Shown here piece by piece: positions 25,067 to 58,816 of a DNA stretch of 64,000 nt. How positions within the stretch are numbered: position 1 is the first letter of the stretch; every line of letters begins with the position of its first letter. The translations under genes were made by a program, and so were the position numbers. The notes beneath the pieces were generated by a model. That model worked only from the letters and a program-made list of their open reading frames with translations, was not told the DNA's origin and did no database searches. The DNA is taken from positions 1 to 64,000 of the forward strand of contig NZ_JAMQON010000003.1 of the NCBI RefSeq assembly GCF_031624395.1. Reading direction: 5' to 3'. This DNA is from Halomicroarcula saliterrae. Lineage in GTDB: Archaea; Halobacteriota; Halobacteria; Halobacteriales; Haloarculaceae.

Positions 25067-26267
25067 GCCGTCGGGCGACGAGGGTCGTCGCGAGCGCCAC
25101 CGCGACCGATATCGACCCGGCCGCGAGGAGTAGCGGCGTGTAGCCCAGCCCGGCGGTCACGGCGAGACCGGCGAAGGTGACTGGGCCGGCAAAGCGCCCG
25201 GAGAACGTGGCGCTGTTGCGCAGACTGAACGTCCCGGCCCGGTGTGCCTCCGTCGTTCGCTCGCTCAGCGACGCGTCGATGCTGGGCAGGAGCAGGCCGA
25301 TGCCGGCCCCGGCGAAGACGACCCCGGCCACGGTGGTCCCCAGCCAGCCGAACAGGCCGATGAGGAAGAACCCGACGCCGTAGCAGGCGAAGCCGAGGCC
25401 GACCAGCTGGACGGAGCTGAACCGGCGGGCGAGGCGGCCGGTCGCCGTCGCGGCGACCATCGAGACGGCCTCCGCCGAGAGGATGACCGCGCCGACGAGC
25501 ACCGGTGCCAGGACCGGTTCCAGCAGGAACGGGAGCGTCGTGAAGACGACCCCGAAGGCGAGGAACTCTGTCAGGAAGGTCACGCCGAAGAGCGCGAGCA
25601 CGGCCGGCGTGGCGACGCTGGAGAGCGCCGACCGGAGGTGTGCGACGCCCCGGGTCTGGGCCCCCGTCGCCGGCTCCTCCAGCAGCAGGGCGACCGCGAC
25701 CGCCAGCGGCACCGCCGCGAAGTAGGTGAGGAACGGTGCGTTCCACGAGATACCCACGAGGTAACCCCCGAGCACGGGAAAGAGGGCGGCCGTCAGGGAG
25801 AGGACGGCCACGTTGACCCCGAGGACAGCGGTCCGCTGGGCGTCCTCGAAGGTGTCGCCGATAATCGTGACCGTCGTGATGAAGATGGCGGCGGCGCCGG
25901 TGCCCTGCAGCACCCGCAGGAGCAACACCGCCTCGAACGAGGGGGCGAAGGCCATCGCGCCGCCCAGAACCCCGAAGGTCGCGAGGCCGCCGACGAGGAC
26001 GCGCTTGCGGCCGAGCCGGTCCGCGAGCAGGCCGACGAACGGCGAGAGGAGGATGCCGACGACGAAGTAGCCACTCACGAGGAGGCTCGCCTGGGCCTCC
26101 GTCACCCCGAAGGCGTCCCGGAACACCGGCAGCGTGGGGCTGACGAGCGGGACGCCCAGCGGCGCCAGCGCGGTCGAAAGCAGGACGAGCTGGACGGTCC
26201 GCGAGCGCCACGGCACGCCCGCCTCGGCCGGGTCAGTACGCGAATCGGCCACGGCGTCGTCAGCCAT
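25023..26267 (-). CDS. MFS transporter
   Basis: The 414-residue protein has about 12 hydrophobic helices and the MFS signature between helices 2 and 3, GLLADRLGRKRVLVGG. The motif-C-like segment GGYLVG lies in helix 5. The layout matches drug or small-molecule efflux proteins, but the substrate cannot be read. Its 3' end overlaps the end of pdhC by 44 bases on the other strand. The FAD oxidoreductase gene lies 12 bases upstream in the same direction, so both may share a message. Confidence 0.88.
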   Translation of the reverse strand: MADDAVADSRTDPAEAGVPWRSRTVQLVLLSTALAPLGVPLVSPTLPVFRDAFGVTEAQASLLVSGYFVVGILLSPFVGLLADRLGRKRVLVGGLATFGVLGGAMAFAPSFEAVLLLRVLQGTGAAAIFITTVTIIGDTFEDAQRTAVLGVNVAVLSLTAALFPVLGGYLVGISWNAPFLTYFAAVPLAVAVALLLEEPATGAQTRGVAHLRSALSSVATPAVLALFGVTFLTEFLAFGVVFTTLPFLLEPVLAPVLVGAVILSAEAVSMVAATATGRLARRFSSVQLVGLGFACYGVGFFLIGLFGWLGTTVAGVVFAGAGIGLLLPSIDASLSERTTEAHRAGTFSLRNSATFSGRFAGPVTFAGLAVTAGLGYTPLLLAAGSISVAVALATTLVARRPTPAAAASGPPDRI

Positions 26268-53488: not shown

Positions 53489-54622
53489 ATGAGCCGGTCT
53501 GGAGCCTTCTGTCCGAAGTGTGGCGACGAGTTCGAGCCACCCGAGGACCGCCCCGAGCTCCCGGGCACACAGCGGGACTCCGAGCGGGTCCTCTGTGACG
53601 CCTGTTACTTCGAGGAGTTCGACCTCGTGGACGCCCCCGAGACCATCGAGGTCCGAGTGTGTGCACAGTGTGGGGCGGTCCACAAGGGGAACCGCTGGGT
53701 CGACGTGGGCGCCGAAGATTACACCGACATCGCCGTCGAACAGGTCAGCGAGGCGCTGGGCGTCCACGTCGACGCCGAGGCCGTCGAGTGGCAGGTCGCG
53801 CCCGAGCAGCTCGACCAGAACAACATCCGGATGCACACGGAGTTCTCGGGCGTCGTCCGGGGCATCCCAATCACCGAGCAGGTCAGCGTCCCCGTGCGCA
53901 TCGCTCGCGAGACCTGCAAGCGTTGCGGGAAGATCGCCGGAGGGTCGTTCGCCAGCGTCGTGCAGGTCAGAGCCGACGAGCGGGACCCGACCGACGACGA
54001 GGTCGACCGGGCGAAGACCATCGCCGAGGAGTACGTCGCCGAGCGCGAGGCCACCGGCGACCGCAACGCCTTCATCACCGAGACCAACGAGGTCGACGAC
54101 GGGCTGAACATGAAGATATCGACCAACCAGATGGGCCACGGCATCGCCAAGCGCATCACGGCCCAGCTGGGCGGGGGCTACTCCGACTCGAAGCGCCTCA
54201 TCACCGAGGACGAGGACGGCCAGAAGCTCTACCGGATGACCTACGCGGTCCGCTTGCCGCGGTACCGACAGGGCGAGCTCATCGACCCCGAGGACGGCGA
54301 CGGCCCCGTCCTCGTCCGCTCGGTCCAGGGGAACCTCAAGGGCGTGCGGCTGGCGACCGGTGAGAAGTACGAGGCCCAGTTCGAGGAGGGCGAGGCCCCC
54401 GACGCCGACCGGCTCGGCTTCCGCGACGACGGCGAGCCGACGACGCTCGTCGCCGTCGAGGACGAAAACGCCGTGCAGGTGCTCGACCCGGAGACGTTCG
54501 AGAGCAAGACCGTGCCGCGGCCGGACTATCTCGACACCGACGCCGACGAGGTGCCGGTGGTCAAGAGCCGCGCCGGCCTGCACGTGCTGCCGGCGGCCGA
54601 CGACGCTACCGACGGGGAGTGA
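53489..54622 (+). CDS. nmd3: NMD3-family ribosome-export protein homolog
   Basis: The 377-residue protein has the NMD3 N-terminal zinc modules: FCPKCGDEF..LCDACYFEEF and VRVCAQCGAVHKGNRW, followed by CKRCGKIAGG near residue 150. These are the parts that bind the large ribosomal subunit in eukaryotes. Archaeal NMD3 lacks a nuclear-export signal, and its role in ribosome assembly is inferred. The ATG at 53489 is well placed. The end overlaps the HPr-kinase-like gene by 17 bases on the other strand. Confidence 0.92.
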   Translation: MSRSGAFCPKCGDEFEPPEDRPELPGTQRDSERVLCDACYFEEFDLVDAPETIEVRVCAQCGAVHKGNRWVDVGAEDYTDIAVEQVSEALGVHVDAEAVEWQVAPEQLDQNNIRMHTEFSGVVRGIPITEQVSVPVRIARETCKRCGKIAGGSFASVVQVRADERDPTDDEVDRAKTIAEEYVAEREATGDRNAFITETNEVDDGLNMKISTNQMGHGIAKRITAQLGGGYSDSKRLITEDEDGQKLYRMTYAVRLPRYRQGELIDPEDGDGPVLVRSVQGNLKGVRLATGEKYEAQFEEGEAPDADRLGFRDDGEPTTLVAVEDENAVQVLDPETFESKTVPRPDYLDTDADEVPVVKSRAGLHVLPAADDATDGE

Positions 54623-55577
54623 CGTCCGAGTCGGGGGCAGGGCGCTCGGCGAGGTCGCGTTCGACCCTCGCTACGAGTGTCTCAAGTGCGTCCAGCGAGC
54701 GCGGCCGGGTGAGCCGACAGACGTCGACGGCATCGGCCAGCGTCCCGCAGGCGTCGAGGTGTGCCTGCTGTGCCGTCCGGTCCGTGGCCCGATAGATGGC
54801 GTAGCTCGCTTTGAGGAGCCCGAAGACCCCCCGCTGGGCCGACAGTCGCTCGATATCGACGTCGGCCCCGTCGGTCAGGAGATACACCGCCGCCAGTGGG
54901 TACGTGCCCGCTGCGAAGCGGTCCTCGACCGCCACTTCGGCCGTCGCCTCGCTCGACTGGCCGAGCCCCAGCGCCGCGCTCGCGCGGGCGTCGACGCTGA
55001 GAGACGGTGCGCCCGAGGGGACGACTGGCCTCCCGGCCGGGTCACACGGGAGCACGTCGTCCGTCAGCAGGTCGTGCCCGGCGGCGAGGAACGCACCGGC
55101 AGTGGTCGACTTCCCGCGTCCGGACGGACCCGCGAAGGCCACGGCGCGGCCGTCGATAACCACTGCGCTCGCGTGCAAGACGACGGCCCCCTGCTGGACG
55201 AGTGCCGACCGCAGACCCGGCCCCCGGACGAACCGCCGTCGAGCAGCCGCGGTGCTCTCGGGTACCGGTGACAGCGTCAGCTCCCTGCCGTCACGAATCC
55301 GCAGCGTCCCGACGCCGTCGTAGAACCAGTAGAACGTCCCGGAGGCCGTCTCGTGGACGGTGAACTCCCCTTCGGGGTCGGCGTAGACACGAGTCGAGGG
55401 GTCGGGAATCTCGGTCGGGTCCGCGGGGAGGGACCCGCGGTCGATGCGTATTTCGGGGCCGACGTGTCCGCTGTCGCCCGGCTCCCGAAGCGACGGGAGC
55501 CGTATCGAGGACCGAACCCGCCGGTCGAAAACAGTGTATTCGCGGGGCTGAGCGTCCGTCGGTACCGTGGGTGTCAC
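54606..55577 (-). CDS. HPr-kinase-like protein of the lasso cluster
   Basis: The 323-residue protein has the layout of lasso-cluster HPr kinase homologs. A beta-rich N-terminal part (ETASGTFYWFYDGVGTLRIR) is followed by LVQQGAVVLHASAVVIDGRA and the P-loop FAGPSGRGKSTTAGAFLAAG near residue 150. HDLLTDDVLP then carries the acidic metal site. Such kinases phosphorylate the precursor peptide in some bacterial lasso systems. It uses a GTG start at 55577, 12 bases after the precursor stop. That the peptide is its substrate is inference; the known enzymes modify a C-terminal Ser, and this precursor ends in Asn. Confidence 0.82.
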   Translation of the reverse strand: MTPTVPTDAQPREYTVFDRRVRSSIRLPSLREPGDSGHVGPEIRIDRGSLPADPTEIPDPSTRVYADPEGEFTVHETASGTFYWFYDGVGTLRIRDGRELTLSPVPESTAAARRRFVRGPGLRSALVQQGAVVLHASAVVIDGRAVAFAGPSGRGKSTTAGAFLAAGHDLLTDDVLPCDPAGRPVVPSGAPSLSVDARASAALGLGQSSEATAEVAVEDRFAAGTYPLAAVYLLTDGADVDIERLSAQRGVFGLLKASYAIYRATDRTAQQAHLDACGTLADAVDVCRLTRPRSLDALETLVARVERDLAERPAPDSDVTPRR

Positions 55578-55589
55578 GCCGCCCGGCAG

Positions 55590-55721
55590 TTAGTTGCCCA
55601 GGCCGCGGCCGTTGTTGCCGGTCGTACCCGAGTTCCCGTCGACGCGGGAGAAGTGCCGTCCTTCAGTGACCGTTTCGATGGGACCGAGCGTCGCGATTTC
55701 GGGGGGTTCGTACGCTTTCAT
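55590..55721 (-). CDS. Lasso peptide precursor
   Basis: This 43-residue peptide starts MKAYEPPEIATLGPIETVTE. The leader fits YxxPx(L/I)xxxGxxxxxT exactly: Tyr4, Pro7, Ile9, Gly13 and Thr19. Thr is expected next to last in the leader, so the core starts at Gly21. The core begins GRHFSRVDG and ends GRGLGN (23 residues). Asp at core position 8 allows a Gly1-Asp8 macrolactam ring; the tail is Gly/Asn/Thr-rich. The cyclase gene lies 66 bases upstream and the kinase gene 12 bases downstream, in one direction. A TATA-like TTGTATCC lies about 25 bases upstream of the ATG. Confidence 0.88.
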   Translation of the reverse strand: MKAYEPPEIATLGPIETVTEGRHFSRVDGNSGTTGNNGRGLGN

Positions 55722-55787: not shown

Positions 55788-57659
55788 TTACGAGGGGATT
55801 CGCTGTAGCCACCGTTCGAGCGTCGTCGCCATGGCCAGGGTTCTGGCGTCGCTCGCGGTCAGGCCGTTCCGGAGCCGCCCGACGGCGTTCGCGAGCGCGT
55901 CGCCGTCGAGATAGCGACCGACTGCCGGCTCGCCGTCGGCCAGCGTCCGCTCGACGAGGTCGGTGTCGTATCGCTGGAGGCCGTAGACGACGTTAGGCGA
56001 GAACTCGGCCTTGTCGGTCCGGTCGCGGACAGCCGCGGGCAGGACGTCTGCCAGCGCCCGCCTGACGATGGTCCGGTCGAGGCCGTCGCTGACGGTGTGT
56101 CCGGGCGGGAGCGCCACGGCGAACTCGACGAGCCGCTTGTCGAAGTACGGGAACCGCGGTTCGACGCCGTGTGCCGCCCCCGCGATATCGTTGAGTTCGA
56201 GGTTGAACGCCGGCTCGTCCGTCGTCAGCGCCCGCCGGCGAATCGCCCGCTGTGTCCGCGGTTGGCCGCGGCGCTGGTCGGCAGCGATGCGGTCGACGAG
56301 CCCGGACCGACGGGCGAACCCGCCGTCGAGCGGCGCAAACGCCATGTCGAGGTAGTCCGCCTCGTCGAAGCGCCGGTGGTAGAGCCGCCGGAGCCGGTCG
56401 GGCACCAGCGGTCGAGCGATGTCGTCCCACAGCGCGTCCCGGGCGTCGAGCCACGGGTAGTTGTCCAGATACCCCCGGAACTCGCGGGCGAACGTCGGGA
56501 GCTGTCCGCGGCCGAGGAGCCCGCGGAGGTAGCCCCGAACGTCGGACCCCATCGTCTGGTCGCCCCCGTAGCCGTTGAGCACGACGCCGGTGTCACACTG
56601 CCCGGCGACCTCGAACAGCCGCCAGATGAGCATACACAGCGAGGGGTAGTAGGGCTGGCCGCGGTGGTCGAGATGCCTGTCGAGCCCGACCAGCGGGCCG
56701 ATTCCGTCGCCGTCGACGTAGTGGGGGTCGAAGGCGCCGCTGCCGAGGACAGCGTCGATGTAGCGCCCCTCGTCGCAGGCCTCGACGGTGTCGAAGACGG
56801 CCGAGAACGTCCGCAGCGGCGGCGCTCCGGCCGCGGCTCGCTGTGTGGCGGCGACACCGGCTATCGAGGAGGAGTCCAGCCCGCCGGAGAGCAGCGACCC
56901 CACCGGCCCGACGCTGCGGCGGCGGTCGGCGACCGCCCGCTCGAACAGGTCCCGGAACCGCTCGTCGTAGGCGGAGCGGTGGGCCTCGGGCAGCGGGTCG
57001 ACCTCGGAGAGCGACCAGTACCGCGTGCGGTCGAGCCCGTCGTCGGTCACGACCAGCCGGTGGGCCGGCGGGAGCCGCGAGACGTCCTCGTAGAACGTCC
57101 GCGAGGAGTCGGCGAACCGGCCCACCAGGAAGTCGCCGATTCGGTGTTCGTCCGGGGCCGACCGCACGCCGTCGAGTCCCAGCAGTGGCCCCGGCTCCGA
57201 GGCGAGCGCGACGCCGCCGTCGGCCGTCTCGGCGTAGTACACCGGCTTGACACCCATGTGGTCCCGGGCACAGACGAGCCGTCGACGCTCGGGGTCCCAG
57301 ACGACGGCTGCGAACGCGCCGACGAGGTGACGGGGGTAGTCGACCCCCCAGCGGCGGTAGGCGTGGGCGACGAGGTCGGTGTCGGGCACCTCGCTCGCGA
57401 CGCCGAACGCCGCGCACAGCTCGGCCCGGTTGTCCAGCCGCAGGGCCGCGGTGACGACGACGCCGTCGACCTGTCTCGGGAACGACCGGCCGCGGGCTTC
57501 GGGGAGCGTGCAGTTGTGCTGGTGGCCGAGTGCGACGGCGTCGCCACACCAGTACCCCGACCCCTGTGGCCCCCGATGGGACTGGGCCGCCGTCAGCTGC
57601 CGAACCGCTGGCGCCGCCGAGGTGCCGTCCCCACACAGCACCGCGCTGATTCCACTCAC
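55788..57659 (-). CDS. Lasso peptide cyclase, asparagine-synthetase-like
   Basis: The 623-residue protein has an inactive glutaminase-type N-terminal domain (VSGISAVLCG, SHRGPQGSGYW, RLDNRAELCAAFG; the catalytic Cys2 is absent). The ATP-pyrophosphatase core follows, with LLSGGLDSSSIAGVA, LNGYGGDQTMGSD and RFPYFDKRLVEFAVALP. This combination next to a YxxP-leader precursor marks a lasso cyclase, which activates the ring Asp or Glu and closes the macrolactam. The GTG at 57659 is chosen because it gives the family start [M/V]SGI; an AAATTATT box lies about 30 bases upstream. It is divergent from taw2. Confidence 0.9.
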   Translation of the reverse strand: MSGISAVLCGDGTSAAPAVRQLTAAQSHRGPQGSGYWCGDAVALGHQHNCTLPEARGRSFPRQVDGVVVTAALRLDNRAELCAAFGVASEVPDTDLVAHAYRRWGVDYPRHLVGAFAAVVWDPERRRLVCARDHMGVKPVYYAETADGGVALASEPGPLLGLDGVRSAPDEHRIGDFLVGRFADSSRTFYEDVSRLPPAHRLVVTDDGLDRTRYWSLSEVDPLPEAHRSAYDERFRDLFERAVADRRRSVGPVGSLLSGGLDSSSIAGVAATQRAAAGAPPLRTFSAVFDTVEACDEGRYIDAVLGSGAFDPHYVDGDGIGPLVGLDRHLDHRGQPYYPSLCMLIWRLFEVAGQCDTGVVLNGYGGDQTMGSDVRGYLRGLLGRGQLPTFAREFRGYLDNYPWLDARDALWDDIARPLVPDRLRRLYHRRFDEADYLDMAFAPLDGGFARRSGLVDRIAADQRRGQPRTQRAIRRRALTTDEPAFNLELNDIAGAAHGVEPRFPYFDKRLVEFAVALPPGHTVSDGLDRTIVRRALADVLPAAVRDRTDKAEFSPNVVYGLQRYDTDLVERTLADGEPAVGRYLDGDALANAVGRLRNGLTASDARTLAMATTLERWLQRIPS

Positions 57660-57763: not shown

Positions 57764-58816
57764 GTGGAATCACAGGACTGCACCGACCTCGCCGTCGTGG
57801 TCGCCAAGCCACGGACCGAATCGGTCATCGACGCGCTCGACACGGAGGGGGTCTACGACGCCGACCGGAGCGTCCAGCCGTGGGACGCGGAGAGCGTCGC
57901 CGTCCCCGTGACCGCGCCGCCCGAGACCGTCGAGGTCCGCGAGGTCGTCCGGCAGGTCGGCGAGCGGCGGCTGCGGAACCTGGCGGACCACCTCCGCCAG
58001 CGCGGGTGGAGCGAGGCCGAAATCGACGCGGCCCCGTCCTCGTGGGCGGCCATCGGCAGCGTCGTCCTCGTCGAACTGGGCGAGACGCCCCGGCCGGCGG
58101 CGGTCGGCGAGGCGCTGCTCGCCCTGCACGGCGAGGCCGACACGGTGCTCGCTCGCAACGGCATCGACGGCGTCCACCGCGAGCCCGACGTGACCGTCAT
58201 CGCCGGCGAGGGCGACACCGAGACGGTCCACACGGAACACGGGACCGAGTACGCGCTGGACCTCGCCGAGGTGATGTTCTCACCGGGGAACAAGGCCGAG
58301 CGGGCCCGGATGGGCGAGCGGGTGCAGGCCGGCGAGCGGGTGCTCGACATGTTCGCCGGCATCGGCTACTTCACGCTCCCGATGGCCCGGGCCGGCGCGG
58401 AGGTCACCGCCGTCGAGCACAACCCGACGGCCTTCCGCTATCTCGTCGAGAACACGATGCGCAACGGCGTCGACGGGCTGGTCCACCCCTACCGAGCGGA
58501 CTGTCGTGACGTCGTCGAGGCGGGCATCGACGGCGGCCCGGTCGACCGCGTGGTGATGGGCCACTACGAGGCGAGCGAGCCGGACGGCGACGGCGGCTAC
58601 GCGTATCTCGACCACGCCCTCGACGCGCTCGCACCCGGCGGGGTCGTCCACGTCCACGAGACGACCCCGGAGGCGCTGGTGTTCGAGCGCCCCGTCGAGC
58701 GCCTGACGGCCGCGGCGGTCGCTGCGGGCCGCTCGGTCGAGGTGCTGGACACCAGACGCGTCAAGAGCCACAGCGAGGGCGTCGCCCACGTCGTCGTGGA
58801 CGCGAGAATCGAGTAG
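57764..58816 (+). CDS. Trm5/Taw2-type tRNA-modifying enzyme
   Basis: The 350-residue protein has an N-terminal region (residues 1-110) and a Rossmann domain with VLDMFAGIGYFTLPMARAGA, the SAM site, then AVEHNPTAFRYLVEN. This is the layout of Trm5 and of Taw2, which work on the base next to the anticodon of tRNA-Phe. The motif at the catalytic place is MGHYEAS, not the NPPY or NLP type, which favours the Taw2 (aminocarboxypropyl transfer) branch over methylation. The start is GTG at 57764. It converges on cetZ, with four bases between stops. Confidence 0.82.
   Translation: MESQDCTDLAVVVAKPRTESVIDALDTEGVYDADRSVQPWDAESVAVPVTAPPETVEVREVVRQVGERRLRNLADHLRQRGWSEAEIDAAPSSWAAIGSVVLVELGETPRPAAVGEALLALHGEADTVLARNGIDGVHREPDVTVIAGEGDTETVHTEHGTEYALDLAEVMFSPGNKAERARMGERVQAGERVLDMFAGIGYFTLPMARAGAEVTAVEHNPTAFRYLVENTMRNGVDGLVHPYRADCRDVVEAGIDGGPVDRVVMGHYEASEPDGDGGYAYLDHALDALAPGGVVHVHETTPEALVFERPVERLTAAAVAAGRSVEVLDTRRVKSHSEGVAHVVVDARIE

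Follow-up and report, generated by a model that had tools for sequence, protein, structure and literature searches.

A probable lasso peptide precursor gene and its cyclase-kinase cassette in Halomicroarcula saliterrae, with a core better conserved than its leader

Introduction

The closest described counterparts of the locus analysed here are the class II lasso peptide systems of the paeninodin type, which resemble it in the cyclase (C) and in the HprK-like kinase; their split B1 and B2 proteins, MsbA-like ABC transporter and nucleotidyltransferase are also found in wider haloarchaeal clusters. The locus departs from that type in being archaeal, in lacking B1/B2 beside its gene trio, in a product without a C-terminal phosphoacceptor Ser, and in a YxxP leader where Bacillota paeninodin-type precursors have WxxP (PMC13381572). 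The Bsf system of Bradymonas sediminis likewise combines a YxxPxL leader with a predicted Gly1-Asp8 ring, and its kinase BsfK, which phosphorylates an internal core serine (Ser3), has the motif H-G-G-G-K-S-D-D with spacing identical to that of the kinase described below (PMC10368454). The comparison covers leader, ring and kinase; Bsf differs in having Ile instead of Thr at position -2 and in carrying kinase, B1 and B2 in one cluster.

Among the haloarchaea, plasmid pHALXA01 of Halopiger xanaduensis shares the leader rule, B1/B2, the cyclase family and a kinase, but its core is of the form [NDE]KxGxxxD (type 2 hereafter) with C-terminal ..GS.. and no Gly1...Asp8, and the cyclases of such type-2 clusters are only 36–41% identical to ours. 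The gene table of the H. xanaduensis plasmid record (NC_015658.1; L120) omits the precursor at about 25641–25802, and the lasso cyclase is labelled there as an asparagine synthase (asnB); other haloarchaeal records are likely to carry such mislabelling as well. Metanodin (PMC12670498) has a Thr(-2) leader and closes its macrolactam via an Asp side chain, but it has Asn at position 1 and bears on type-2 precursors, not on a Gly1 core. Archaeal lassopeptide clusters have already appeared in genome surveys (PMC12144867), and B1, B2 and kinase genes have been reported in a haloarchaeal draft genome (PMC10093198). In the open-access papers searched, we found no characterised archaeal lasso product and no relevant account of lasso systems whose B1/B2 are shared or act in trans.

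Here we describe a cyclase-precursor-kinase (C-A-K) trio in a 64-kb stretch of the H. saliterrae genome, referred to as the window. Its product is probably a class II (cysteine-free) lasso peptide of halophilic archaea, with a tail predicted to be threaded through the ring.

Results and discussion

Precursor gene and flanking enzymes

Gene A has an ATG start and encodes MKAYEPPEIATLGPIETVTEGRHFSRVDGNSGTTGNNGRGLGN, which divides into the leader MKAYEPPEIATLGPIETVTE and the core GRHFSRVDGNSGTTGNNGRGLGN (Table 1). The gap between the cyclase stop and its start is 66 bp, and 12 bp separate its end from the kinase start. The original prediction had placed it between a cyclase and a kinase, and the neighbouring ORFs on both sides do match those families; Tyr4, Pro7, Ile9, Gly13, Thr19, Gly21 and Asp28 each occupy the position it had given them in the translation. 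The leader rule is common to 36 haloarchaeal precursors, and the leader itself matches NCBIfam NF033521 weakly (14.2 bits, cutoff 19).

Table 1 Features of the trio, its flanks and the type-2 precursors.
Feature	Position	Strand	Basis
Lasso precursor gene A, 43 aa	55590..55721	-	Exact leader-rule match; precursor homologues next to cyclase homologues in three further genera
Predicted leader, 20 aa, Thr at -2	55662..55721	-	YxxPx(L/I)xxxGxxxxxT
Predicted macrolactam ring, core 1–8 (GRHFSRVD), Gly1 amine-Asp8 side chain	55638..55661	-	Gly1/Asp8 in 4/4 homologues
Predicted tail, core 9–23	55593..55637	-	Four-precursor comparison: GNSGTTGN invariant, end variable
Lasso macrolactam cyclase C, GTG start	55788..57659	-	NF033535, E=1e-142
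HprK-like peptide kinase K	54606..55577	-	TIGR04352, E=4e-8, below cutoff; motif intact
nmd3 (housekeeping), left flank of insertion	53489..54622	+	Pfam NMD3, E=4e-57
Trm5/TYW2-family methyltransferase gene, right flank	57764..58816	+	Pfam, E=1e-45; empty-site comparison
Type-2 precursors	L037 (own genome, contig C6) 9520-9690, 9937-10074	+	With 26 more in other haloarchaeal loci

No other ORF of 25–110 aa in the window fits the leader rule. Sixty random sequences of 64 kb each (3.84 Mb in all), equal to the window in first-order composition, gave two matches to the rule and none to the combination of leader, Gly1 and an acidic residue at core 7–9. Across related loci totalling approximately 0.6 Mb, almost every ORF that fits the rule has a lasso cyclase or kinase as its neighbour; two fits are evident chance matches. 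A chance ORF is ruled out by this random-sequence control together with the codon constraint and the core DNA pattern given below. Searches with the precursor against plasmids and against PDB sequences gave no match, and a Pfam match to SSURE (0.015, below cutoff) was rejected as spurious. Judged from its sequence and setting, the 43-codon ORF is supported as a genuine lasso precursor.

The cyclase gene (~623 codons) lies upstream of gene A on the same strand. Its product scores 477 bits against NF033535, below the curated cutoff of 525. The N-terminus reads MSGIS, so that the glutaminase Cys2 of AsnB is replaced by Ser, the residue found there in most haloarchaeal lasso cyclases (Thr or Gly in a few); two AsnB-like outgroups retain MCGI, and the lasso cyclase clade is separate from both. 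Loss of Cys2 would be expected of lasso cyclases when the peptide itself supplies the amine. An ordinary asparagine synthetase was rejected on this loss and on the lasso cyclase model outscoring the AsnB models. Matches in the PDB reach amidotransferases and asparagine synthetases only, and a search of genome contigs returned only two distant bacterial loci. The kinase, encoded downstream of gene A, has the full motif H-x14-GxxGxGKS-x15-DD and gives weak PDB matches to HprK and other P-loop proteins.

Close homologues and conservation of the core

Searches at order, class, family and phylum level, in samples that overlap, yielded about thirty lasso-type cyclases. Only three are close to that of the window (51–53% identity); they come from three other haloarchaeal genera (genomes G174, G368 and G417), and in the cyclase tree the window sequence forms a single clade with these three (L038a, L039a and L064a; support 100/100). 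At each of the three loci, a precursor and a kinase follow the cyclase, in that order. The cores are GRHFSRVDGNSGTTGNNGRGLGN in the window, GNHFSAVDGNSGTTGNRGRGNRGR in G174, GRHFSRVDGNSGTTGNRGNGKGKKKGWW in G368 and GQHFSRVDGNSGTTGNRGHRRGT in G417, with the consensus G-[RNQ]-HFS-[RA]-VDGNSGTTGN-[NR]-G. The predicted ring partners Gly1 and Asp8 are thus kept in all four members of the clade, as had been anticipated, but their conservation alone is not specific for ring closure, given that 14 of core positions 1–16 never vary. A conserved ring with a variable tail had also been expected. Within the tail, only the distal end varies (C-terminal residues Asn, Arg, Trp and Thr, never Ser), and the expectation is ruled out for the proximal tail, where GNSGTTGN is the same in all four precursors.

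RiPPs usually keep the leader and vary the core. Here, the identity between the window and its homologues is 15–17 of 18 positions in the core and 7–9 of 17 in the leader; by sequence comparison, the core is kept better than either the leader or the cyclase. Between the window and each of the three homologues, core codons 1–18 show 6–8 synonymous but only 1–3 nonsynonymous differences, an excess that indicates selection on the encoded peptide. Of 392 genomes of the order, 3 contain the core DNA pattern, and these are precisely the ones that have a window-type cyclase; the reversed control is found in none. G417, found in a later family search, lies outside this count. Such inverted conservation is unusual among RiPPs and is a good reason to look for a conserved target. 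Cores so nearly identical in different genera suggest that the peptide has such a target or acts as a signal, rather than being a toxin in an arms race.

Predicted ring and tail

The Gly1-Asp8 chemistry of the product is predicted from the cyclase family. The tail GNSGTTGNNGRGLGN comprises 15 residues (6 Gly, 4 Asn, 2 Thr, 1 Ser, 1 Arg and 1 Leu) and is as poor in bulky residues as originally described. This counts against the lasso reading, the tail offering little bulk for holding a threaded state. The Gly/Asn/Thr-rich composition would suit a macrolactam that forms between Gly1 and Asp8 yet remains a branched, unthreaded ring, and phosphorylation rather than threading might be the functional change: a kinase is present in every such trio, and Bacillota have gene clusters related to lasso clusters that are built around the kinase and have no cyclase (LPP, PMC13381572). 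However, both the family of the cyclase and the rules that the leader obeys are those of lasso peptides. Moreover, lasso cyclases already known thread the peptide before closing the ring. We consider this alternative quite unlikely.

A ring built from other residues, for example after cleavage at a different site, is suggested by the type-2 precursors of the same genomes, in which similar leaders precede [NDE]KxGxxxD cores. Asp8, on the other hand, is the only acidic residue in the window core, which fixes the acceptor, and the invariant Gly1 puts it at a standard ring size; a different ring in the gene A product is therefore very improbable. The expectation of Gly1 with an acidic residue at core 7–9 in homologous loci was accordingly upheld in the true homologues and failed in the distant paralogues: the type-2 precursors fit the leader rule, and under Thr(-2) all 28 lack this pair. 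Both precursors on contig C6 of the window genome belong to this set. The motif [NDE]-K-x-G-x3-D is found in 25 of the 28 and starts at residue 2–6 of the Thr(-2)-predicted core; the spacing after the leader Thr is variable, and GS is conserved near the C-terminus. These precursors are possibly a second haloarchaeal class with an Asn1/Asp1 ring, and an Asn-started ring has a precedent in metanodin (PMC12670498).

Further core types were observed. A trio in G003 has a precursor with Gly1 and Asp8 in an unrelated core, GTGGGDFDAFATGSP. At L040 (10864-11019), a lasso leader precedes a core beginning GSKGKGRGRGRGRGRG that has no acidic residue at 7–9, and the ORF overlaps that of the kinase. L124, from another family of the same phylum, has three same-strand leader-like peptides near a lasso-type cyclase, and their cores contain PGTADGQGS or similar, which is another core type.

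Insertion site and the missing B1/B2 genes

The nmd3 and Trm5/TYW2-family genes that flank the trio adjoin each other in 29 congeners. The gap is at most about 110 bp in 28 of them and approximately 0.55 kb, with neither cyclase nor kinase, in the remaining one (G466). Homology with these relatives stops at ~54600 and restarts at ~57785, indicating an insertion of ~3.2 kb. Its GC content is 71% against 67–68% in the flanks, and the 3′ end of the kinase gene overlaps that of nmd3 by 17 bp. No further lasso cyclase was detected at E<=1e-80 among the genomes of the genus that were searched.

Neither B1/B2 nor a transporter gene is present in the insertion, and no B gene lies near the cassette, a point on which the original prediction was silent. 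The genome has one PqqD-type B1 (4e-18) and one credible B2 (NF033537, 3e-25, above cutoff), both on contig C6, where their neighbours are an ABC transporter, a kinase, two other lasso cyclases and two other precursors. C6 shows no resemblance to known plasmids and is a possible contaminant (assembly contamination estimate 4.75%). Each of G174, G368 and G417 combines two types of cyclase and two of precursor with a single B1 and a single B2; in G174 and G368, the B1 adjoins the window-type cyclase and the B2 the other cyclase. Two-cyclase relatives with a single B1 and B2 imply that maturation is probably common to both systems and works in trans, and a single leader-processing pair serving several cyclase-precursor sets is probably the simplest reading of these gene arrangements. 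The clusters L038, L039 and L064 each contain two interleaved lasso systems, between which B1/B2 are split in L038 and L039. Other trios without B genes are those of G003 (B1/B2 ~20 kb away) and G480 (B1/B2 on another contig).

An insertion without B1/B2 or transporter, in one species of the genus only, could also be a stranded, non-functional remnant, in which the trio left B1/B2 behind on transfer and its precursor stays unprocessed. We regard this as unlikely: the three ORFs are open, the catalytic motifs and the leader are intact, and the core amino acids were kept while synonymous sites changed. Compatible B1/B2 proteins are present in the genome, and the leader is as similar to those of the resident C6 precursors (8/17) as to those of its own homologues. 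The C-A-K trio is more probably a transferable cassette that would borrow B1/B2 from the resident lasso locus.

Proposed pathway

The pathway as a whole, with B1/B2 in trans, a Gly1-Asp8 ring, a kinase step and distant export, is our preferred reading, to which we assign a probability of roughly three in four; the genes, the constraint on the core, the insertion and the B1/B2 counts are observed, and each chemical step, the threaded fold, export and role are inferred. The YxxPxI leader of the translated precursor would be bound by the single PqqD-like B1 of the genome, and the transglutaminase-like B2 would cut after Glu20, leaving the conserved Thr19 next to last in the leader. The adjacent cyclase would then adenylate Asp8 with ATP and join it to the freed amine of Gly1, so that the eight-residue ring closes around the threaded GNSGTTGN... 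tail. The HprK-like kinase is predicted to phosphorylate a Ser or Thr, probably an internal, conserved one (Ser5, Ser11, Thr13 or Thr14) because the C-terminal Ser of paeninodin-type kinase substrates is absent. Export would probably proceed via the ABC transporter of the second locus.

Implications

Judged against the open-access literature, the precursor family with inverted conservation and the recurring C-A-K cassettes without B genes may be new. The locus offers a defined peptide whose ring can be predicted firmly. It is also a natural setting in which to ask whether leaders from unlinked cassettes can be processed by one B1/B2 pair, a capacity that would be useful to combinatorial lasso production. 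For the haloarchaea more widely, we tentatively propose, at slightly less than even odds, that lasso biosynthesis is modular: a resident B1/B2 pair would serve several mobile C-A-K cassettes for structurally different lasso peptides, of the Gly1-Asp8 and [Asn/Asp/Glu]1-Lys2 types, and the peptide whose core is kept better than its leader and enzymes would act on a conserved archaeal target or as a signal and be phosphorylated internally.
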